Notes under the pieces: model-generated
The model's input: the letters and a program-made list of their open reading frames with translations, nothing else
Database searches by the model: none
Told to the model about the DNA's origin: nothing
Made by a program: the position numbers and the translations under genes
NCBI GenBank assembly: GCA_003646705.1
Contig: QMLK01000021.1
Span: forward strand, 1-9,327
Direction of reading: 5' to 3'
From: Deltaproteobacteria bacterium
GTDB taxonomy: Bacteria > Desulfobacterota > B13-G15
DNA length: 9,327 bases
In this document: positions 677-9,256 of the stretch, piece by piece
Layout: every line of letters starts with the position of its first letter
How positions within the stretch are numbered: position 1 is the stretch's first letter

Positions 677-1509
677 CCTCCTGCACGTCCGTAAAGCCTT
701 TCCTCCAAGGTCCACCCCAACCTCCAGAGGAGGACCCGAAGGCGATAGCGCTTAAGGTGCCTCCTTAAGGCCTCCTCGAGGTCCCTCCGCCCCCTGGCGT
801 AGGTCCTCCAGAAGGTCAGCTTGTCGGCGTCGCTCAAAGGGAGCCCCCTCCGCCTGAGCTTCTCGGCGGAGCGGTCAAGCCTCTTCAGGTTCTCCATCCT
901 CATGGCTGGGCTCAGAGAGGGATGGCGGGTGGCCCGGTCGAAGTCTATGATCAGGACCTCGCCGTCCTCCACGAGGAAGTTCTTCAGATGTAGGTCCCCG
1001 TGCAGGACCCCCAGGTCGTGGACCATCCTGGTGAGCTCAGCGGCCTTTCTGATGATCGTCCTCTTCTGCCCAAGGGGCGGCCTCCCCCTGAGGTAGGTTA
1101 TCAAGTCCACCACCCGGGGCAGGTAATGGGTTATCAGATAGCCCCGGTAAAAGGGTCCCACCCCTTCGCGGATGGCCGCCACGGGTTCCAAGGTCCTCAC
1201 CCCCCTCTGTCTCAGGCCCTCCGTGATGAGCAGCTCCTGGAAGGGACGGTCCCCGAAGAGGAAGAGGTCTTCGTTGAAGGCCCTGAGGAGGCCACCATGC
1301 AGGTACCTCCTCACCACCAAGGCTACCTCCCCTTCCACCACCAAAAGGCTTCCCCTGCCCCGGAGGGGACCCCCTTGGTCGAGGCCCCTGAAGAGGGAAC
1401 GGGGTTCAAGCAGCCCCTTCTCCCTCAGATAGGGGAGGTAGGCCTCCTTGGCGAGGATCCTCCTCGAACCCTCTTCAAGCTCGATGAAGCCCTTGGGCAG
1501 TCCCTCCAA
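673..1509 (-). CDS. Kdo/WaaP-type lipopolysaccharide kinase family protein
   Basis: Small protein-kinase-like fold of 278 residues, resembling the 3-deoxy-D-manno-octulosonic acid kinase (KdkA) and WaaP/InaA group that phosphorylates LPS core sugars at the inner membrane. The catalytic loop HGDLHLKN (170-177) carries Asp172 and Asn177. The metal-binding motif is IIDFDRA, with Asp189 as the likely DFG-equivalent. A candidate helix-C Glu is at 92, and the VVRRY strand (65-69) precedes a glycine pair typical of KdkA. The start is TTG at 1509, chosen because GGAG lies seven bases upstream (1517-1520) and no in-frame ATG exists before the kinase core. This start lies 35 bases inside the upstream transporter gene. 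It is the last gene of the run, and its TAA interleaves with that of nifS. A RIO-like or other small-molecule kinase is possible; why it sits with metal genes is unclear. Confidence 0.8.
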   Translation of the reverse strand: MEGLPKGFIELEEGSRRILAKEAYLPYLREKGLLEPRSLFRGLDQGGPLRGRGSLLVVEGEVALVVRRYLHGGLLRAFNEDLFLFGDRPFQELLITEGLRQRGVRTLEPVAAIREGVGPFYRGYLITHYLPRVVDLITYLRGRPPLGQKRTIIRKAAELTRMVHDLGVLHGDLHLKNFLVEDGEVLIIDFDRATRHPSLSPAMRMENLKRLDRSAEKLRRRGLPLSDADKLTFWRTYARGRRDLEEALRRHLKRYRLRVLLWRLGWTLEERLYGRAGG

Positions 1510-2683
1510 GGTCGAACTCCAAATCCTTCAGTCTTTCATCACTGGCCTTCAGGACCTCTACCCCCGCGTTGGACAGGACGTAGAAGGGTCCCTTGCCCTC
1601 TAAATCGGCCCTGGAGACGAGCTTGTCAACCCCCTCCTTCAGGAGCCAATGGCTGACCTTCATGCCGCGGCCCTTTCCCTCCTCGGCGTAGGGGTTCCTC
1701 AGCACCTTCTCATCTAGGACCTTGCCGTCCGACAGCCTGAACTTCACGAAGTAGAAATAGGGCGCCTCCCCGAAGTGCTCGGACAGCCTCTCCTTGTCCA
1801 CCTCCAGGGGCACGGCGTAGGTCAAGCTGTCCTTGTGCTCGGGTTCGTAGTGGATGAGGATGTGGTCCACGAAAGGGACCTCCTGCCAGATCTTGTCCTC
1901 CAGGGCCATGACCGCCCTATGGGCCCGCTCGAAGTCCCTCACCTTGAGGATGAGCTCCGCCTCTATGAACCGGTATTTGCCGGAGTTGCGCCCCCAGAGC
2001 CCCTTTATCTCCGCCACCCTCGGGTCCGAGAGGATGATGGCCTTTATCTTGTCGAGGGTCTGAAAGTCGAGGGAGGCGTCCAGCAGCACCCTTATCGCCT
2101 GAAGGGCGATGCCCAGCCCCATCCTCGCGATCAGTGCCACCATCACGAGGGCCGCCGCCTTGTCGAGATAGCTGAACCGGAGTAACCCCCCCAAGAGTCC
2201 CCCGAGGATCATGGTGGAGGATAACATATCGCTTCGTACGTGGTAGGCCTCAGCCGACAGGCTCGGCGAGTTGAACTCCCTTGCCTTGCCCCCTATCCAG
2301 CGGGAGAAGAGGTAGGTGGCCAGGACCGTGATCCCCACTCCTGCCATGGCGAAGGGGATCTCCTCCACCATCAACCCCTTTCGGGAGAGGAAGGCCTCCC
2401 TCGCTATCTCATAGCCCGCCAGCAGGATCAGGAAAGAGACCCCCAGGGAGATCAGGTTCTCCAACTTGTAGAGGCCGTAGGGAAAGGTCTTGCTGTGCCT
2501 GCGCGAGAGCATGATCCCCGCGAAGAGGGAGGCCGAGGAGACCACGTCGCTGAAGGAATGCACGGCGTCAGCCTTCAAGGCCACACTACCCGAAAGCACC
2601 GACAACCAATACTTGAAGAGGGCCAGGGAGAGGTTGAAGCCGAGGGCCGTGAGGGCGATCCTGCCGTCTCGGGGGATCTTCAT
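1475..2683 (-). CDS. Cation diffusion facilitator transporter with C-terminal NifX-like domain
   Basis: Inner-membrane metal-ion/proton antiporter of the CDF family fused to a dinitrogenase-cofactor (NifX/NifB-type) domain; 402 residues, where a plain CDF has about 300. Residues 8-200 hold the hydrophobic transmembrane segments. The metal site is visible as H42xxxD46 in TM2 (within ADAVHSFSD) and H148xxxD152 in TM5 (within AEAYHVRSD), the His/Asp pattern of zinc-, cobalt- or iron-type CDFs. Residues about 205-283 form the cytoplasmic CDF domain ending at HILIHYEP. From about 288 the chain changes to a NifX-like fold: LSEHFGEAPYFYFV, then a V-K-E-N-P-like strand and a long helix. This domain has Ala where the stand-alone NifX proteins here have Cys after HFG. 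ATG at 2683 overlaps the upstream stop by four bases (ATGA) and has AAGGA upstream. The substrate metal cannot be told from sequence. Confidence 0.9.
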   Translation of the reverse strand: MKIPRDGRIALTALGFNLSLALFKYWLSVLSGSVALKADAVHSFSDVVSSASLFAGIMLSRRHSKTFPYGLYKLENLISLGVSFLILLAGYEIAREAFLSRKGLMVEEIPFAMAGVGITVLATYLFSRWIGGKAREFNSPSLSAEAYHVRSDMLSSTMILGGLLGGLLRFSYLDKAAALVMVALIARMGLGIALQAIRVLLDASLDFQTLDKIKAIILSDPRVAEIKGLWGRNSGKYRFIEAELILKVRDFERAHRAVMALEDKIWQEVPFVDHILIHYEPEHKDSLTYAVPLEVDKERLSEHFGEAPYFYFVKFRLSDGKVLDEKVLRNPYAEEGKGRGMKVSHWLLKEGVDKLVSRADLEGKGPFYVLSNAGVEVLKASDERLKDLEFDLGGTAQGLHRA

Positions 2684-3414
2684 CGGTCCTTGGTCATGGT
2701 GACGAGCCTTATGCCGTGGCGGTGCAGCTGCCTGAAGGTGGCCCCCTGGGCGATGTACCTCAAGGCCTCCCCTTCGTCCACCACCAAGGACCCCGATAGG
2801 GCTGCTATGCCGTGATCGAAGAGGAGGGGGGTCAAGGGGGTTGTGGGGCCTATCAGCATTACGAAGCTGTCCTCGGGACAGAGGCTGAGGAGCCCCTCGA
2901 GGGTGTGGTTGATGAAGGCCGTGCCCGTGATGCCTATCACCTGGCAGCGGGGCAGCACCTCCTGGGCCTCATGGGCGGGGAGGTCCCCCTGGCGGGGGTG
3001 TTGCTCCAGCACGAAGAGCCTCCTGGCGACCTTGCGGAGCTCATCAACGAAGGGGAAATGGCCCACGATGGCCACGTCCTTCCCAGCCCCCTTTTCCGCC
3101 AACAGTCCGAAGGCGTTCTGCTCCTTCAGCTTGCCTTCGTCTACCTCGAGCAGCGAGTTTATGGCCGCCATGCCGATGGAGGCCTCGAGGAGGGAGTCCG
3201 ACAGCGCTAGGCGGGCCACCTCCCCTGCTGGCCTCCCCTCAAGGGTTCCAGCTTGCCTCACAGGGGGGGCTTCGTGGGGGTGGTCCTCGCGGAAGGTGGA
3301 GGCCAGGCCGGCGCGACGAGATCCCACAAGGGTCCAGAAGGCCCCCACCAGTACTCGCCTCACTGGGACCTCCTCGTCCTTCAGCCCTTGGAGGATCTCC
3401 TCTAAGATCTTCAA
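2680..3414 (-). CDS. DUF4213/DUF364 putative heavy-metal chelation protein
   Basis: Predicted cytoplasmic protein of 244 residues with the two-domain layout of the DUF4213-DUF364 family (COG2014), whose structure from Desulfitobacterium suggested metal chelation; no reaction is established. The N-terminal domain (about 1-90) includes the GLASTF strand and the helix ending at INSLL. The C-terminal Rossmann-like domain begins at VAIVGHFPF (114-122) and carries ITGTAFINHTLEGLL (162-176), then IGPTTPLTPLLFDHGI (188-203) and SGSLVVD (207-213), which are the family's conserved loops. The TTG at 3414 is taken as the start because it follows the upstream TAG after one base and the N-terminus aligns with the family; the ribosome site is weak (AAGAAGAG). 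Its stop overlaps the transporter start, so chelation and transport may be coupled. Family call firm, function inferred. Confidence 0.87.
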   Translation of the reverse strand: MKILEEILQGLKDEEVPVRRVLVGAFWTLVGSRRAGLASTFREDHPHEAPPVRQAGTLEGRPAGEVARLALSDSLLEASIGMAAINSLLEVDEGKLKEQNAFGLLAEKGAGKDVAIVGHFPFVDELRKVARRLFVLEQHPRQGDLPAHEAQEVLPRCQVIGITGTAFINHTLEGLLSLCPEDSFVMLIGPTTPLTPLLFDHGIAALSGSLVVDEGEALRYIAQGATFRQLHRHGIRLVTMTKDR

Positions 3415-3415
3415 G

Positions 3416-4546
3416 CTAAGGCTCTTCTTCCCTTGGGCGGGGATCTCTGCGGGGTCGGGTGAAGATCACCCTGTACTTATCCTCCTGGCCCTCGAAGCAG
3501 ATACGGCACCTCTGGCACTCTTCCCCCTCTTCGTCGGGTTCCTCCACCGCGGAGGGGGGCTCCAAACGGACCTCAAAGCCCGCCTCCTCGTACATCTTCA
3601 CCATCTCGCTCAAGCGGGGCTCAGAGGCCACGAACCTCCTCGTCCACCCCTCCCGAAGGAGCTCCTGTCCCTTGGCCGTCCCCTTCTCAGCCCCGATGAG
3701 CCTCTCGGAGAGGCGTTGCCAAAGGGCCTCGATCTCTCCCCCGACCCCTGTGGGGACCTCTAAGGGCGTCTTGCCCTCACTCAGGGCCTCTATCACCCTT
3801 CGGTCAAAGGGGATCTTGCCCAGCACTTCCACCCCCTCCTGCCGACAGAAGTCCTCCACCTCGTGGGCCTTCTGTAAGTTTACGTCGAACTTGTTGATGC
3901 AGACAAGGGCCTCCACCCGCAGACGACGGCATAGCTCCAGGACCCGTTTGAGGTCGTGGAGGGCCGCCACCGTGGGTTCAGTGACCACCAAGGCCATATC
4001 CACCCCCGACAGCGACGATATGACCGGACAGCCCACCCCGGGTGGCCCATCCACAAGGATTAGGTCCTCCCCCTTCTCCTCCGCCAACTCCTTGGCCCTC
4101 TTCCTCACCTCGGCCACCAATTTGCCCGAGTTCTCCTCGCCCATCTCCAACTGGGCATGGATCATGGGACCGAAGGCCGTCTCCGAGAGGTACCAGTGGC
4201 CGGAGAGGTGGTCCTGCATGGAGATGGCCTCCTCGGGACATCCCAGGGCGCAGAGGCCGCAGCCCTCGCATTCGATTAGGTCCACCTCTCCGTCCTCTAT
4301 GGCCCCGAAGCGGCACAACTCGGTGCAGCGGCCGCAACCTGTGCACCGCTCGAGGTCCACCTGCGGCTTCCTACCTCCGTAGAAGGTGCCCTCCTGGAGG
4401 ACCTTCGGCTTGAGCAGGAGGTGTAGATCCGCTGCGTCCACGTCGCAATCGGCCAGCACCGCCCTTTCGGCCAGCCGGGCGAAGGAGGCCACAAGGGTCG
4501 TCTTCCCGGTGCCCCCTTTACCGCTTATCACCAGAATTTCCTTCAC
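3416..4546 (-). CDS. MinD-superfamily ATPase with inserted 2[4Fe-4S] ferredoxin and Cys-bearing C-terminal tail
   Basis: Soluble P-loop ATPase of the COG1149 type (MinD/Mrp relatives carrying a ferredoxin), thought to couple ATP hydrolysis to Fe-S or metal-cluster handling; the exact role is unknown. The deviant Walker A motif GKGGTGKTT is at 9-17, and the switch/Walker B strand ILVDGPPGVGCP is at 163-174. The ferredoxin insert has two full motifs: Cys68, 71, 74, 78 and Cys93, 96, 99, 103. The ATPase core ends near 284. An extra segment of about 90 residues follows, starting at RRFVASEPRLSEMVKMYEEA and containing Cys344, Cys347 and Cys350. It looks like a separate small domain fused on and could bind a metal. 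The start is GTG at 4546, supported by AGGAGGAAGG directly upstream; it lies 29 bases inside the scaffold gene. Confidence 0.9.
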   Translation of the reverse strand: MKEILVISGKGGTGKTTLVASFARLAERAVLADCDVDAADLHLLLKPKVLQEGTFYGGRKPQVDLERCTGCGRCTELCRFGAIEDGEVDLIECEGCGLCALGCPEEAISMQDHLSGHWYLSETAFGPMIHAQLEMGEENSGKLVAEVRKRAKELAEEKGEDLILVDGPPGVGCPVISSLSGVDMALVVTEPTVAALHDLKRVLELCRRLRVEALVCINKFDVNLQKAHEVEDFCRQEGVEVLGKIPFDRRVIEALSEGKTPLEVPTGVGGEIEALWQRLSERLIGAEKGTAKGQELLREGWTRRFVASEPRLSEMVKMYEEAGFEVRLEPPSAVEEPDEEGEECQRCRICFEGQEDKYRVIFTRPRRDPRPREEEP

Positions 4547-4961
4547 CCTTCCTCCTGAGGTAGTCGGAGATGGCGTAATGGAGCCCTACCACCCCCAGCA
4601 GGGAGCAGTGGGCCTTGCCCGAGGGGATGCCCCCTGCGGCCTTGATCACCTCGTCGTCGGTGATCTCCAAGGCCTCCTCTATCCGGCGACCTATGGCCAG
4701 CTCGCTCAAGATGCTGGTGGTGGCGATGGCGGCGGCGCAGCCGAAGACCTTGTAGCGCAACTCGGTGATGCGGTCGTCCTTCACCTTGATGTAGAGCCTG
4801 ATGTGATCCCCACAGCGCGGGTCCCCCACCAGGGCTACCCCGTCCGCCTCCGGGATCTCCCCCACGTTGCGCGGGTGGCGGAAGTGGTCCATCACCTTCT
4901 CGTTGTAAAAGAGCACGCCGCTTTCAGGAGGTGTCTCGTAGAGCTTCCGCCAGTCCTGCAT
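4518..4961 (-). CDS. IscU/NifU-type Fe-S cluster assembly scaffold
   Basis: Scaffold on which [2Fe-2S] or [4Fe-4S] clusters are built from desulfurase-derived sulfur before transfer to target proteins. All three cluster-ligating cysteines are present: Cys50 in GDPRCGD (with Asp52, which in IscU governs cluster release), Cys75 in FGCAAAIATTS, and Cys119 in GKAHCS. The family signature YNEKVMDHFRHPRNVGEI is at 19-36. The protein has 147 residues, close to IscU and the NifU N-terminal domain, with no NFU or ferredoxin domain attached. About 17 residues precede the usual family start; ATG at 4961 was kept because a GGGGGG run precedes it, although a GTG at codon 16 is possible. The gene lies between the two ferredoxin-ATPases, two bases after one and overlapping the other by 29 bases. 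This implies translational coupling and perhaps a physical complex. Confidence 0.93.
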   Translation of the reverse strand: MQDWRKLYETPPESGVLFYNEKVMDHFRHPRNVGEIPEADGVALVGDPRCGDHIRLYIKVKDDRITELRYKVFGCAAAIATTSILSELAIGRRIEEALEITDDEVIKAAGGIPSGKAHCSLLGVVGLHYAISDYLRRKGEGNSGDKR

Positions 4962-4963
4962 GG

Positions 4964-5806
4964 TTAGCCCCCCGAGGAGAGTTCCTTCACCTTGAGGAGG
5001 ATGGAGGAGAAAAGCCCCCTGTAGTGGGGCAGTTCCTCGACGACCAGTCCCCCCCGGGAACAGACCTCGCTTATCCTGGGGTCAAAGGGTATCTCAGCCA
5101 GAAGGGGGATTTCCTCTCCCTGGAGGTACTCCCTCACCCCCTGGTCCCCCACGTCTGCTCGGTTCAGCACCACCCCCATCTTGATCCCCAGCTTCTTCAC
5201 CATCCCCACGGCGAGCGTGAGGTCGTAAAGGCCGAAGGGGGTAGGTTCGGTCACCAAGCAGCAGAAGTCCGCCCCCTTCACCGTCTCCACTACGGGGCAG
5301 GAGGTACCCGGAGGGGCGTCCAGGATGGCCATGAGCGACGGATCTATGAGGGCCTTGGCCTTCCTTATGACGGGGCTGGGCATGGGTTCTCCCACATGGA
5401 GGACCCCCTGGATCAGGCGGAGGCTTCCCCTCTTGCCCACCTCCACCCTGCCTATCTCCTTGGGCCTCTCGGATATGGCCCCTTCGGGACATACAAAGGA
5501 ACAGGCCCCACAGCCATGACAGAGCTCTTCGAAGAGCAAGACCTGCTGCCCGAGGACCATCAGGGCGTGATACTCACAGGCCTCAGCACACCTGCCGCAG
5601 TGGGTGCACTTCCCTTCGTCTATCTGGGGCAAGGAGAGGGTTACGGGGATGACCCCTTCGGTCTCGATGGGTTTGATGAAGAGGTGTACGTTGGGTTCCT
5701 CGGCATCGCAATCCACCAATTGGACCTCCCCCGCCACGGAGGCCATGTTTGTGGCCACCAAAGTCTTGCCCGTTCCCCCCTTTCCGCTGGCCACCGCGAG
5801 GATCAC
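4964..5806 (-). CDS. MinD-superfamily ATPase with inserted 2[4Fe-4S] ferredoxin
   Basis: Second COG1149-type cytoplasmic ATPase, 280 residues, with core and ferredoxin but without the tail seen in its neighbour at 3416-4546. Walker A is GKGGTGKT (8-15). The strand LVDCDAEEPNVHLF (30-43) follows, and the Walker B/switch region is ILDAPPGTSCP. The ferredoxin insert has Cys67, 70, 73, 77 and Cys96, 99, 102, 106, enough for two [4Fe-4S] clusters. The two ATPases are related but clearly diverged, and such tandem pairs are a known arrangement in anaerobes; they may form a heterodimer. The GTG start at 5806 shares GTGA with the DUF169 stop and is preceded by GGAGG five bases away. Family assignment is firm; the substrate or client is unknown. 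A role in cell-division placement is unlikely given the ferredoxin. Confidence 0.91.
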   Translation of the reverse strand: MILAVASGKGGTGKTLVATNMASVAGEVQLVDCDAEEPNVHLFIKPIETEGVIPVTLSLPQIDEGKCTHCGRCAEACEYHALMVLGQQVLLFEELCHGCGACSFVCPEGAISERPKEIGRVEVGKRGSLRLIQGVLHVGEPMPSPVIRKAKALIDPSLMAILDAPPGTSCPVVETVKGADFCCLVTEPTPFGLYDLTLAVGMVKKLGIKMGVVLNRADVGDQGVREYLQGEEIPLLAEIPFDPRISEVCSRGGLVVEELPHYRGLFSSILLKVKELSSGG

Positions 5807-6423
5807 GATCCCTCCAGGAGCCTTTTGGCCACCTCCACGGGGAGCCCCACAATGACCCTGTCCCGCGGGATTCCACCATGCCTCCGCGACTCCTCACAGC
5901 CGAAGGAGAGGGTGAGCTTTGCGTCGCGAAAGGCCCTCACGGCCACGTTGCTGCAAAGGGCAGCGATGCTCGAGAGCTCGACCCTCGGCCTTTCGCAGAA
6001 GAGGGCTTCGTAGCGCCTGAGGAGCTTCATGACCTGCTGGGGCTGAAGATAGGCCATGAAGACCTGGGGTTCCCCCTCTGTATTTATCCCGATGGCCCTG
6101 AGGCCTCCGTCCAGGGTGGGCAGGTCTCCAATGGCCTCCACCGCATACCGGTGGGGGAACCCCGCCTGTTCCTCCAGGCGTGCCTCCATCGCCCCTCGAA
6201 CATCGTGGTTCCACCCGAAGGCGTAGCGGGCGGCGTCACAACTGAGGCTTTCGGCGGTGAGGACCACTGGGACCAGGCTGGCCCTGGTGACCGCCTCGCA
6301 GAAGCGAACCCCCTCAAGGTGCGTTCCCCCTTTCGGCATCCCCCCGTAGGAGAACTCCAGCCTGTACCACCTCCCTCCAAAGGAGCTCTCCATCTGCCTG
6401 AGGACCTCTTTCAGGTCCATCAT
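5803..6423 (-). CDS. DUF169 family protein (COG2043)
   Basis: Uncharacterised cytoplasmic protein of 206 residues belonging to the DUF169 (COG2043) family, common in archaea and anaerobic bacteria; no biochemical function is known. Family hallmarks are RFCEAVTRA (Cys42), VVLTAESLSCDAARYAFG (Cys62), the central region GEPQVFMAYLQPQQVM, SIAALCSNVAVRAF (Cys157) and LSFGCEESRRHGG (Cys176). Four conserved-looking cysteines suggest a metal or cluster site, which is inference. The open frame extends to 6474, but the start is placed at ATG 6423: GAGG lies five bases upstream and the start forms an ATGA overlap with the upstream stop. The next codon, ATG 6420, is an equally possible start. Its 3' end overlaps the ferredoxin-ATPase start by four bases. 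Confidence 0.85.
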   Translation of the reverse strand: MMDLKEVLRQMESSFGGRWYRLEFSYGGMPKGGTHLEGVRFCEAVTRASLVPVVLTAESLSCDAARYAFGWNHDVRGAMEARLEEQAGFPHRYAVEAIGDLPTLDGGLRAIGINTEGEPQVFMAYLQPQQVMKLLRRYEALFCERPRVELSSIAALCSNVAVRAFRDAKLTLSFGCEESRRHGGIPRDRVIVGLPVEVAKRLLEGS

Positions 6424-6641
6424 CCCTTCCTCAGCATCGGAGTACCGCACTTGGGACAGGGTACCTGAAAACAAGGGACCCCTGGCTTATGGGGTACGCT
6501 GGCGCCGCACTGTGGACAGACACACTGCCCTCCAGGCCCCAAACCCCTTCCCATGCCTCGACTCCATCCCCTTCCCCCTCTACCCCTTCCCGAGCCTCTA
6601 CCGAGGCCCCCCGGTGGTCCAGTACCATCACCTCTTGGCAT
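6420..6641 (-). CDS. Gly/Arg-rich small protein with C-terminal zinc ribbon
   Basis: Protein of 73 residues. Residues 1-37 are almost wholly Gly, Arg, Pro and Ser and begin MPRGDGTGPPGG, an opening typical of DUF5320-type small proteins found beside NifX and Mrp genes. Residues 38-73 form a rubredoxin-like zinc ribbon: CVCPQCG (Cys40, 42, 45) and VPCPKCG (Cys62, 65), with Cys57 between them. The function is unknown; metal binding is expected from the paired CxxC knuckles. It is a real gene because it has its own start five bases after the FmdB stop, an AAGGG just upstream, and an ATGA overlap with the DUF169 start. The coding sequence is purine-rich and includes a run of G tracts at 6568-6591. 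The related gene at 8646-8966 has the low-complexity part but no ribbon. Confidence 0.8.
   Translation of the reverse strand: MPRGDGTGPPGGLGRGSGRGRGGRGWSRGMGRGLGPGGQCVCPQCGASVPHKPGVPCFQVPCPKCGTPMLRKG
6568..6591 (-). other. Possible G-quadruplex motif in coding RNA
   Basis: On the coding strand there are four G runs of 3, 4, 5 and 4 bases separated by loops of 2, 4 and 2 bases, which meets the usual pattern for an intramolecular quadruplex. A fifth run occurs further along near 6544-6547. It falls inside the Gly/Arg-rich half of the small zinc-ribbon gene, so GGG and AGG codons account for its origin. Whether it folds in the mRNA or affects translation is unknown. Confidence 0.45.
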
Positions 6642-6646
6642 GTCCC

Positions 6647-6904
6647 TTACCCCCTTTCACAGCATCTTTTGGGGTTGGCGCAGGAGACCCCCTTTTCGCA
6701 GCACCGTTCATCGCCCCTCCCCCACCTCTGGCTGCTCGCCGAAAAGCCTCCCTCCTTGAAGGTGAAGGAGCTCGGCGAAAGGATCCGCTCTATGTCTTTG
6801 CTGCCGCAGTGTTTGCATTCGAGGGGGTCGTCCTTGTCACCCATTCCTTGAAAGATCTCAGAGATCCGTCCACAGGCCTGACAGCGATACTCATAGATGG
6901 GCAT
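6647..6904 (-). CDS. FmdB-family zinc ribbon protein with Cys-rich tail
   Basis: Small putative regulatory or metal-binding protein (85 residues). The N-terminus MPIYEYRC followed by CG (Cys8, Cys11) and the second knuckle CKHCG (Cys30, Cys33) are the signature of the FmdB/CxxC-CxxC zinc-ribbon family, and SPSSFTFKEGGF (43-54) matches the usual Ser/Phe-rich stretch after it. The last 20 residues are unusual in cysteine content: Cys68, 69, 75, 81 and 82, able in principle to bind a further metal or cluster. ATG at 6904 has AAGGAGG upstream. The gene sits 22 bases after a NifX-family gene and five bases before the Gly/Arg zinc-ribbon gene. FmdB was named for regulation of formamidase, but a regulatory role here is only a guess. 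Confidence 0.88.
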   Translation of the reverse strand: MPIYEYRCQACGRISEIFQGMGDKDDPLECKHCGSKDIERILSPSSFTFKEGGFSASSQRWGRGDERCCEKGVSCANPKRCCERG

Positions 6905-6926: not shown

Positions 6927-7304
6927 TCACCACCTTCCCCTTCCCATGCCCGAGTGGGGGGAAGCGGTGGCGGAGGTCGCCTCCTGGAGCCTTCCCTCCT
7001 TGAAGAGCTCCACGCTCTTCCTCACGGTCCCTTCAGCGCCCACGTAGACCTTCACCCCCGCGGCTTGAAGTCCTGCCATGGCGTTCGGCCCGATATTGCC
7101 CGTGATGACCGCCTGGCCCCCCTTGTTCGCCACGAGTTGAGCTGCCTGCACCCCAGCCCCCCCTGCGGCCATGGCCGCTTGATTCTCGACGGCCTCAAAG
7201 GCCATCGTATCGGTATCGACGATGACGAAGAAGCTACAGCGTCCAAACCTGGGGTCCACGGGGGCATCGAGGTCCGCCCCCGAGGCGGTGACTACGACCT
7301 TCAT
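6927..7304 (-). CDS. NifX/NifB-type metal-cofactor binding domain protein (copy 1)
   Basis: Stand-alone member (125 residues) of the dinitrogenase iron-molybdenum cofactor biosynthesis family, which in nif systems binds cofactor precursors such as NifB-co. The family start MKVVVTASG is followed by DPRFGRCSFFVIVD with Cys23, then AVENQAAMAAGGAG and ITGNIGPNAMAGLQAAGVKVY, the helix-loop expected to cradle the ligand. After residue 100 the tail becomes Ser/Gly/His-rich and ends GMGRGRW, echoing the Gly/Arg/Trp composition of the small proteins in the same run. ATG at 7304 has GGAGG upstream. A second copy lies 18 bases away at 7323-7691, and a third, fused version ends the transporter. With no nitrogenase genes here the ligand is unknown. 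Confidence 0.93.
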   Translation of the reverse strand: MKVVVTASGADLDAPVDPRFGRCSFFVIVDTDTMAFEAVENQAAMAAGGAGVQAAQLVANKGGQAVITGNIGPNAMAGLQAAGVKVYVGAEGTVRKSVELFKEGRLQEATSATASPHSGMGRGRW

Positions 7305-7322: not shown

Positions 7323-7691
7323 TCAACATCTCCTGTGGTGTTCCTCACAGGCCCGAGCGCCCCTCAAACTGCCCTCGAGGAAGGCCCCCAGCACCTCATC
7401 CACGGGGGCTGACCCCCCCGTGGTCACCACCTCGATGCCGAACTGCTCGAACATCTCTATGGCCCTGGGGCCCATGCCGCCGGCGATGATCACATGGGCT
7501 CCGAGGGATTTTATGAACTGGGGCACCATACCGGGCACGTGGCTCTGATAGTAGGGATTTTCGACCACCTCCACCCTGAGGACTTGCCCATCTTCCACAT
7601 CCACCACGGTGTAGAAGGGACACCTTCCAAAGTGGGCGCTCATCTGTCCCTTGAGCCCCTCCTGGTCATCGCTGGCTATGGCTATCCTCAT
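7323..7691 (-). CDS. NifX/NifB-type metal-cofactor binding domain protein (copy 2)
   Basis: Second stand-alone NifX-family protein, 122 residues. The order of motifs is MRIAIASDD, then [15 protein letters not shown] with His20 and Cys24, then [20 protein letters not shown] with a further His, [21 protein letters not shown], and the final helix. It keeps the His-Phe-Gly-Arg-Cys arrangement and the His-containing loop that copy 1 lacks, so the two copies probably differ in ligand or partner. The C-terminus is CEEHHRRC, two Cys flanking two His, a likely extra metal site. ATG at 7691 overlaps the Mrp stop by four bases (ATGA), so it is probably translated together with the carrier ATPase. Confidence 0.93.
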
Positions 7692-8578
7692 CTCCTTTCA
7701 CCCCCTTTTTCCATCAGCTCTTTGCACCTCCGGGCGATCTCCTTCAGGGCTCGGGCGGCATCGGAATCCGGCTCCGAGAGCACGTAGGGAGGACCACTGT
7801 CCCCCTTCTGCACTATCTCGGGATCTATGGGGACCCTCCCGAGGAAGGGGACCCCAAGTTCCCCGGCCGCCCTTTCACCGCCGCCCGTCTTGAAGAGTGG
7901 GATCAGCTCGCCGCAATGAGGGCAGCGCAACCCACTCATGTTCTCCACGACCCCCAGTACCGGCACCTTCAACATCCTGCTGAAGTTGACGGCCTTGCGG
8001 GCGTCAAGCAGGGCCACATCTTGAGGGGTGGTCACCACCACCGAGCCGTCCATCCTCTCCTTTATGAGTTGAGCCGCACTGAGGGGTTCATCCCCGGTTC
8101 CTGGGGGAAGATCCACGATGAGGAAGTCGAGATTGCCCCAGTCAACCTCGGTCAAGAACTGCCTGATGGCTGTGTGTTTCAGCGGACCCCTCCACACCAC
8201 CGGAGAATCGGGATTGGGCAACAGGAAGGCCATCGAGATCAGCCTCAGATTGGGGAATACATCCACGGGCTTTATCCCGTCTTCCCCACCTATCAAGGGC
8301 CTCCAATCGAGGCCGAACATCTTGGGGACGTTGGGACCGTGGATGTCGGCATCGAGCAGCCCCACCTCGTGGCCCTCCTTGGCTAGGGCCGCTGCGATGT
8401 TCACCGCTATCGTGGTCTTGCCCACTCCGCCCTTTCCGCTTATCACCATCATGGCATGCCGGATCCTGCCCAGCTGCCTCTTGAGCCTCTCCTCCTCATG
8501 GGCGCGCTTTTCCTCCTCAGTGCACCTTTTGGCCTCTTCACACGTCGAGCAAGATCTGTCCTTTTCACAACGCTCCAT
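7688..8578 (-). CDS. mrp: Mrp/Nbp35-type Fe-S carrier P-loop ATPase
   Basis: Cytosolic ATPase of the Mrp/ApbC/Nbp35 family that binds a [4Fe-4S] cluster at a dimer interface and delivers it to target proteins; 296 residues. Walker [10 protein letters not shown] is at 48-56, [16 protein letters not shown] at 74-89, the switch DLPPGTGD at 156-163, and the bridging-cluster CPHC at 219-222 within [12 protein letters not shown]. The N-terminus adds four cysteines, Cys4, 10, 13 and 19. The C-x2-C-x5-C part matches the N-terminal cluster motif of eukaryotic-type Nbp35, with a shorter first spacing; bacterial ApbC lacks it. ATG at 8578 has GGGAGG eight bases upstream. It is the first ATPase of the run and is translationally coupled to the NifX copy at 7323-7691. 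The assignment is very strong; client proteins are unknown. Confidence 0.95.
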
Positions 8579-8645: not shown

Positions 8646-8966
8646 CTATTCCTCCTCCAGTTCTCGAAGCCTTCGGTTGATCTCCTCCAGCTGTTCCTTC
8701 AGGAATTCAGCCTGATCCTTCAGGAGCTCTCTCTCCTGTTCCCTCGTGAGAGGACCCCCCCACGGTGTCCCAAAGAAGGGCCCTGGTCCGAAGAAGGGGC
8801 CCATCGCTCCGGGCCCCCAGGGCCAAAAACCCCAGGGTCCCCATGGCCCCATACCCCAATAGGGACCGCTCCCCCATGGGGCCTTCTCCTCACCCGTCCT
8901 CTCTCCTGACTCGCCTTGGGGGGGATACCCCATGTATCCCCATCCCGGCCCCCAACGTCTTCGCAT
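8646..8966 (-). CDS. DUF5320-like Gly/Trp/Pro-rich protein with C-terminal coiled coil
   Basis: Protein of 106 residues in two parts. Residues 1-70 are low-complexity, rich in Gly, Trp, Pro and Phe (nine Trp in all), with repeats such as GPWGPWGF and GPFFGPGPFFG. Residues 73-106, from LTREQERELLKDQAEFL onward, form an amphipathic charged helix with heptad leucines, a probable coiled coil. This two-part build is typical of DUF5320-type proteins next to NifX/Mrp genes; their role is unknown. The frame could begin at GTG 8975, but that codon is part of the perfect AGGAGGTGA ribosome site, so ATG 8966, eight bases after AGGAGG, is the better start. No signal peptide or membrane helix is evident. 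Oligomerisation through the helix and a binding or scaffold role for the flexible half are inference. Confidence 0.82.
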   Translation of the reverse strand: MRRRWGPGWGYMGYPPQGESGERTGEEKAPWGSGPYWGMGPWGPWGFWPWGPGAMGPFFGPGPFFGTPWGGPLTREQERELLKDQAEFLKEQLEEINRRLRELEEE

Positions 8967-8971
8967 ATCTC

Positions 8972-8980
8972 TCACCTCCT
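8972..8980 (-). promoter_or_regulatory. Strong ribosome binding site deciding the start at 8966
   Basis: AGGAGGTGA on the coding strand is a full match to the anti-Shine-Dalgarno sequence. AGGAGG lies eight bases before ATG 8966, and its GTG overlaps the alternative upstream start, which rules that start out. The same nine bases at the same spacing precede the gene at 9090-9242. Confidence 0.8.
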
Positions 8981-9089: not shown

Positions 9090-9242
9090 TTACCACCACC
9101 ATGGCTGCCGAGGGCCGTAGTAGCTCCAAGGCCACCATCCCCACCAAGCCCAACCGGGGATACCGGTGGCCCAGAACCGCCACCTCCAGCCTCGGCCTCT
9201 GCCCCGCCAGCCCCAGCCGGGTCCCCAGAACCACCAGGGCAT
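9090..9242 (-). CDS. Tryptophan-rich 50-residue small protein
   Basis: Short gene that length-limited gene calling would miss. The translation starts [12 protein letters not shown], continues [19 protein letters not shown] and ends GPRQPWWW, with a TAA at 9090-9092. Seventeen of 50 residues are Trp, with Gly, Arg and Pro making up much of the remainder; there is no Cys and no Lys. The central block, Arg-Gly repeats followed by ATG-I-PGW, resembles a motif I associate with DUF5320-like small proteins near NifX genes, from memory. Support for translation is strong: AGGAGGTGA eight bases before the ATG, the same arrangement as the next gene, and similar composition to its neighbours. The function is unknown. 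Membrane-interface or aromatic scaffold roles are possible, as is a translated leader, since a hairpin follows. Confidence 0.72.
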
Positions 9243-9247
9243 CCTCC

Positions 9248-9256
9248 TCACCTCCT
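9248..9256 (-). promoter_or_regulatory. Strong ribosome binding site of the Trp-rich gene
   Basis: AGGAGGTGA on the coding strand, followed by a second GGAGG that abuts ATG 9242. The AGGAGG core is eight bases from the start codon. This is the main evidence that the 50-codon frame is translated. Confidence 0.75.

Follow-up and report, generated by a model that had tools for sequence, protein, structure and literature searches.

A short reading frame close to the end of a contig from a Deltaproteobacteria bacterium raises the question of why a protein would devote one residue in three to tryptophan, and whether such a protein is made at all. The window considered here, the whole stretch of 9,327 nucleotides that was analysed, carries the frame on the minus strand (9242..9090), with an ATG start, a TAA stop and 17 TGG codons. 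Its 50 residues include 17 Trp, 10 Gly, 6 Arg and 6 Pro; 21 are aromatic, 6 are basic and none is acidic. The ribosome site AGGAGGTGA (9248..9256, minus strand) lies five bases 5′ of the ATG, bearing out the strong site described in an earlier note on this DNA. A GTG three codons 5′ of the ATG offers an alternative start in the same frame, but the MPWW encoded at the ATG is also the beginning of both related copies, one in a second genome of the same family (G001) and one a metagenome protein (P0001). The Trp-rich ORF matched none of the Pfam and NCBIfam models, and the structure predicted for it has low confidence, with a mean pLDDT of 54.7.

Frames of this kind might open by chance in a G-rich strand or encode a Trp-sensing leader peptide, and the strand is indeed G-rich, with antisense frames open across the ORF. 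However, the TGG triplets are distributed 17/0/0 over the three frames, the best frames of 5000 dinucleotide-preserving shuffles average 4.7 TGG and never exceed 10, so that none reaches 17, and the best 50-codon stretch in the other five frames of the whole window holds 9. No Trp genes are found among the identified genes of the window. The G001 copy (43 aa, contig C161) has its own ribosome site, AGGAGGTGG, and P0001 supplies a third copy of 44 aa; 13 of the 17 Trp are invariant across the three. Over 44 aligned codons (gaps placed by protein alignment), the window and G001 copies differ at 32 bases, with 5, 8 and 19 differences at codon positions 1, 2 and 3. The comparison of synonymous with non-synonymous change proposed in the earlier note gives a pS of 0.73 and a pN of 0.14, a ratio (pN/pS) that is an upper bound because pS is near saturation. 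The 57 bases of the core, which aligns without gaps, show 9 changes and all 19 residues are identical; the five other frames of the core keep 10 to 14 of 18–19 residues, and one of them gains a stop. Trp has a single codon, and therefore its retention is itself a constraint on the protein. The frame disruption in close relatives that the earlier note had named as counter-evidence is absent from the one same-family genome, G001. Chance frame and Trp attenuator are both rejected on the shuffles and the frame-specific conservation, with the three copies pointing the same way, and we regard them as extremely unlikely. The Trp-rich ORF is a real gene under purifying selection, and the real small protein that had been proposed from the letters stands.

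The relatives of this protein indicate what it may be. When the three-copy profile was run against 395 genomes of the phylum, the top match outside the family (G141, E 2.6e-9) was a 104-aa full-length DUF5320 protein (PF17253), which has a relative from Candidatus Desulfofervidaceae and whose centre carries the core of the Trp-rich ORF. The local score of the ORF against the G141 protein is 170, compared with at most 123 for 1000 composition-shuffled queries run against the same 25 proteins. DUF5320 proteins have three parts: an N-terminal MPxGDGTGPxGxGPMTGRxxGYCAGY, with small variations among the 25 proteins compared; a variable centre rich in Arg, Gly and aromatic residues, often with an ATG-x-PGW end; and a C-terminal coil (helix 70–103), the sole region with some confidence in a model of mean pLDDT 56.8. 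The ORF shares with DUF5320 the central GRGW-WRFWATG-x-PGW module, the same place in the operon and the same neighbours. Unlike DUF5320, it has no N-terminal GDGTGP...CAGY part (all three copies lack it) and no coil, is half the length, has far more Trp and gives no PF17253 match. Since a complete DUF5320 protein contains its core, the ORF is no orphan but the central module of DUF5320 on its own, an identity that is well supported by sequence comparison. DUF5320 itself is found in a range of anaerobes, among them Methanosarcina acetivorans and Thermotoga maritima, and its named sources include Thermodesulfovibrionales, Chloroflexota, Syntrophales, Omnitrophica, Atribacteria and Methanotrichaceae. 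It is barely named in the literature searched, and the available text of one paper that does mention it gives no tested function (PMC7565180). Full-length DUF5320, searched by sequence against the PDB, returned nothing meaningful, the best match (E 0.001) being a phosphoribosyltransferase.

Stand-alone copies are known from just two genomes, plus a single metagenome protein. Among 5.8 billion proteins, both a single-sequence query and the three-copy profile (4 candidates each) found P0001 as the only further copy. A scan of genome contigs with the three-copy alignment, which may leave out the window's own kin, gave 593 pattern matches, none of them confirmed by tblastn. From a contig scan with Mrp as the query came 22 named loci, of which none was matched by the Trp-rich query and two (L084, L085) held a DUF5320-like frame. 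The profile matched 23 of the 395 phylum genomes at E 0.01. The stand-alone form was present in two of these, the window genome (G000; ~83% complete, 270 contigs) and G001, and a DUF5320-type frame stood at the locus in 14 of the remaining 21. The seven matches without such a frame (L059, L060, L061, L063, L066, L068 and L071) are probably due to chance. A literature search for Trp-rich small proteins yielded nothing of use.

The genes on either side of the ORF appear to supply the missing parts of DUF5320. Upstream, the last 17 codons and stop of a gene cut by the contig end (9274..9327, minus strand) have a counterpart in G001, and are likely the end of a protein made of the N-terminal and central parts of DUF5320; the G001 DUF5320 at this position ends WRFRGLFGPWW. 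Another contig of the window genome, C93, ends inside an N-terminal part of DUF5320, with a sigma54 regulator and a NifX-like gene ahead of it, and we infer that contigs C93 and C21 adjoin. Downstream lies a 109-aa protein (8646..8975, minus strand) that is Gly/Trp/Pro-rich and then continues as a DUF5320-type C-terminal coil (PF17253, 28.2 bits, cut-off 27), so that the neighbours of similar style reported earlier are confirmed. On a single G001 contig the order is NifX0, a coil-less DUF5320 (81 aa from a GTG) and the Trp-rich ORF, with the contig end just beyond. In G001, the Trp-rich gene and the DUF5320 gene each contain the ATG-x-PGW core, and therefore one is a duplicate. A single DUF5320 gene that has been frameshifted or cut in three is ruled out by this duplicate core and by the separate ribosome sites.

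Relatives differ in how these parts are assembled. In G004 and G007, which belong to the same taxonomic order as the window genome, one full DUF5320 lies between NifX0 and Mrp, and in G002 and G003 that interval holds an array of DUF5320 pieces. In the G002 array, full-length forms stand alongside an N-terminal plus central form, a Trp-rich centre with coil and a form fused to NifX. Its modules thus seem to be shuffled among G001, G002, G003, G004, G007 and the window, whose ORF is the barest form seen. One G002 piece (L036 5610-5828, contig C4), a 63-residue Trp-rich centre with coil, occupies a middle position, with full DUF5320 on one side and the window ORF on the other. Small aromatic frames were also noticed elsewhere in these operons: G007 (L039 7668-7841, contig C3) has one between NifX1 and FmdB that is 59 aa long when counted from the ATG, contains 10 Trp and 12 Tyr/Phe, ends RGRGRGRWFWGPWWF and has no Pfam match, and in G002 the slot between NifX1 and FmdB holds a short frame ending GRGKGRWFWGPWWF.

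The rest of the window gives this module its setting, and all of the genes that follow are on the minus strand. Next in order are an Mrp/NBP35 ATPase that corresponds to the first part of a split MrpORP (7688..8578; PF10609; NF041136 356.5 bits over model positions 2–252, cut-off 450) and NifX2, which matches the Di-Nase part of MrpORP (7323..7691; PF02579). These two genes (7323–8578) overlap by 4 bases; Mrp aligns with the beginning of the MrpORP model and NifX2 with its end, under its cut-off, and MrpORP thus appears to be split into two genes here. NifX1 (6927..7304; PF02579) has the orange protein ORP (2wfb) as its nearest solved structure and MTH1175 as the second nearest. There follow an FmdB-type zinc ribbon (6647..6904), a CPQCG zinc-ribbon protein (6420..6641), a DUF169 protein (5803..6474), a MinD-like ATPase with ferredoxin motifs resembling Orp3/Orp4 (4964..5806), a NifU-like scaffold (4518..4961), a second MinD-like ATPase with ferredoxin motifs (3416..4546), a DUF364/DUF4213 protein of putative heavy-metal chelation (2680..3414) and a cation efflux protein that carries PF02579 at its C-terminus (1475..2683). 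The CPQCG protein has a DUF5320-like start, MPRGDGTGP, which it and DUF5320 share as if it were a common N-terminal tag. Within the reach of each locus, G002, G003, G004 and G007 repeat the window gene order, except that DUF169 was not found in the G003 locus; in G001 a NifU gene runs divergently.

The Desulfovibrio ORP complex comprises Orp3, Orp4, Orp5, Orp8 and MrpORP, and is sigma54-controlled (PMC6345978; PMC3897727). The window resembles that cluster in its orange-protein-like PF02579 protein and its pair of MinD-like ATPases bearing ferredoxin motifs; probable counterparts of the Mrp/NBP35 and Di-Nase parts are there as well, and contig C93 of the window genome has a candidate for the sigma54 regulator. 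It differs in having MrpORP in two genes and in its additional DUF5320 pieces, NifU, DUF169, DUF364 and cation efflux genes. Two divergent operons, as in the ORP cluster, are not seen in this stretch, where the cluster genes all lie on one strand and contig ends hide the remainder. A strict sigma54 pattern gave no match before NifX0, but GG-N10-GC sites with 9–10 of 12 consensus positions lie 5′ of NifX0 in G000, G002, G003 and G004, and the similar site of G007 falls under the threshold of 9. About 60 bases before the sigma54-like site of the window genome (L037 4580-4600, contig C93) is a perfect inverted repeat, TTTGTTGC-GATTT-GCAACAAA, perhaps an activator site. On its gene content, the window operon is an ORP-type iron–sulfur gene cluster. 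What the earlier note missed is that the ORF is not a stand-alone oddity and is instead a DUF5320 central module within such a cluster.

The company kept by DUF5320 at large is similar. A NifX, Mrp or MinD homologue lies within 1.5 kb of DUF5320 at 27 of 30 loci in 19 of 22 genomes, the 30 loci being a subset of 42 matches and including some that are themselves PF02579–DUF5320 fusions; NifX alone accounts for 26 of the 30. The Mrp and MinD labels are not separated because the two queries match each other's families. Three of the 22 genomes (G015, G023 and G037) have DUF5320 with none of the three homologues in that range. All nine further DUF5320-bearing loci from the three-copy profile search have NifX within 1.5 kb. 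Twelve loci were meant as DUF5320-free controls, from which L053, L055, L062 and L070 were removed for their DUF5320-like frames and NifX; NifX, Mrp or MinD was present in 0 of the 8 that lack DUF5320, one of which (L063) has a sigma54-regulator match. The strongest sign that DUF5320 and PF02579 may act together is their fusion. Seven proteins from seven genomes carry PF02579 and then PF17253 above both cut-offs, each a PF02579 domain followed by the DUF5320 centre and coil (L036 6634-7251, L043 325-912, L044 1217-1771, L046 3618-4208, L095 5700-6242, L096 5369-5962 and L097 5540-6121); these were picked by eye, and prove that fusions exist but say nothing on their frequency. The NifX1 tails of the fusions are mostly Gly, Met and Arg with few Trp, which speaks against a common Trp wrap.

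This layout recalls IssA of Pyrococcus furiosus, in which a PF02579 domain precedes a tail that is Pro-rich and then cationic, aromatic and Gly-rich; the 70 residues of the tail include 7 cationic, 14 aromatic, 15 Gly and 11 Pro (PMC5524996). The authors of that work proposed that the tail wraps anionic thioferrate, with aromatic contacts stabilising the wrap, and long-tailed IssA relatives keep Trp, Gly and Arg (PMC5524996). The ORF resembles IssA in its tail chemistry (Trp, Gly, Arg, Pro) and its association with PF02579 domains, and the PF02579–DUF5320 fusions have the same layout. It differs in being a separate gene without PF02579, which is found in other genes of the operon. Because the fusions share the IssA layout and the ORF has the tail chemistry by itself, we propose that this free-standing central module of DUF5320 works in trans as an IssA tail around metal sulfide, a tentative reading that we hold at somewhat below an even chance. 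On this reading the NifX-like PF02579 proteins, which the ORF product would need to meet, would hold metal-sulfide material, and the Trp-rich chain, predicted to be disordered and aromatic, would wrap it; Arg would supply charge and Trp packing around a thioferrate or Mo/Cu-sulfide chain, and the flanking N-module and coil proteins would complete the assembly. The ORF matches the cationic IssA tail in aromatic and Gly content, but its charge is weaker in two of the three copies. Trp rather than charge is conserved, since the two copies outside the window have only 3 and 4 basic residues and 1 acidic; electrostatic wrapping alone thus fits poorly, and Trp packing would carry most of the load. 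No conserved Cys is found among the three copies.

Other uses can be imagined for the same chain. Its role might be purely structural, as a sticker that holds the N-module protein and the coil protein of a split DUF5320 together in one complex with no contact to metal or sulfide, which would agree with the split and module-shuffled DUF5320 of G002 and G003 and with the coil as the only part modelled with some confidence; we consider this unlikely, since protein assembly by itself leaves the DUF5320–PF02579 fusions and the extreme Trp content unexplained. A Trp-dense chain could also sit in the lipid interface and so fix the ORP-type complex to the membrane or a cell pole. Summed Wimley–White interface energies favour such an anchor, at about −27 kcal/mol in the window ORF and −26 in its G001 counterpart, as do the polar MrpORP of Desulfovibrio and the amphipathic helix, like that of MinD, in Orp3/Orp4 (PMC6345978). 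However, full-length DUF5320, with the same core, comes to +1 and so lacks a favourable interface energy, and the cation efflux gene is the only one in the cluster with a membrane protein by Pfam, which leaves an anchor unlikely, to much the same degree as the sticker. Nucleic-acid binding through Arg-Gly and aromatic residues is very unlikely. The window ORF does contain RGRGRGW, and an archaeal DUF5320 protein appears as a possible G-quadruplex binder in a motif scan (PMC7565180), but the RGRGRG run is missing from the other two copies and the neighbours are metallo-cluster genes. Among the uses suggested in the earlier note, cluster packing fits the neighbours best, membrane interface is a lesser possibility and RNA binding is backed by composition alone.

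Packing of metal sulfide by a Trp-rich chain acting in trans could extend to the whole family. DUF5320 might be a modular metal-sulfide packing kit of ORP-type operons in anaerobes, made of an N-part, an aromatic wrap, a coil and a PF02579 fusion, with the ORF as the bare aromatic wrap in trans. The ORF product would then be a dedicated Trp sheath around a polymer of metal sulfide bound to protein, and would belong to an IssA-like system of Fe–S storage that bacteria build from several subunits; taken as a whole, this is a doubtful but conceivable picture. The fusions tie DUF5320 to PF02579 and their layout ties it to IssA, giving a widespread family a testable role. The proposed role would also offer a reason for a protein to spend one residue in three on costly Trp and, if true, would mean that a multi-part version of IssA serves some anaerobes in handling or storing iron and sulfur.
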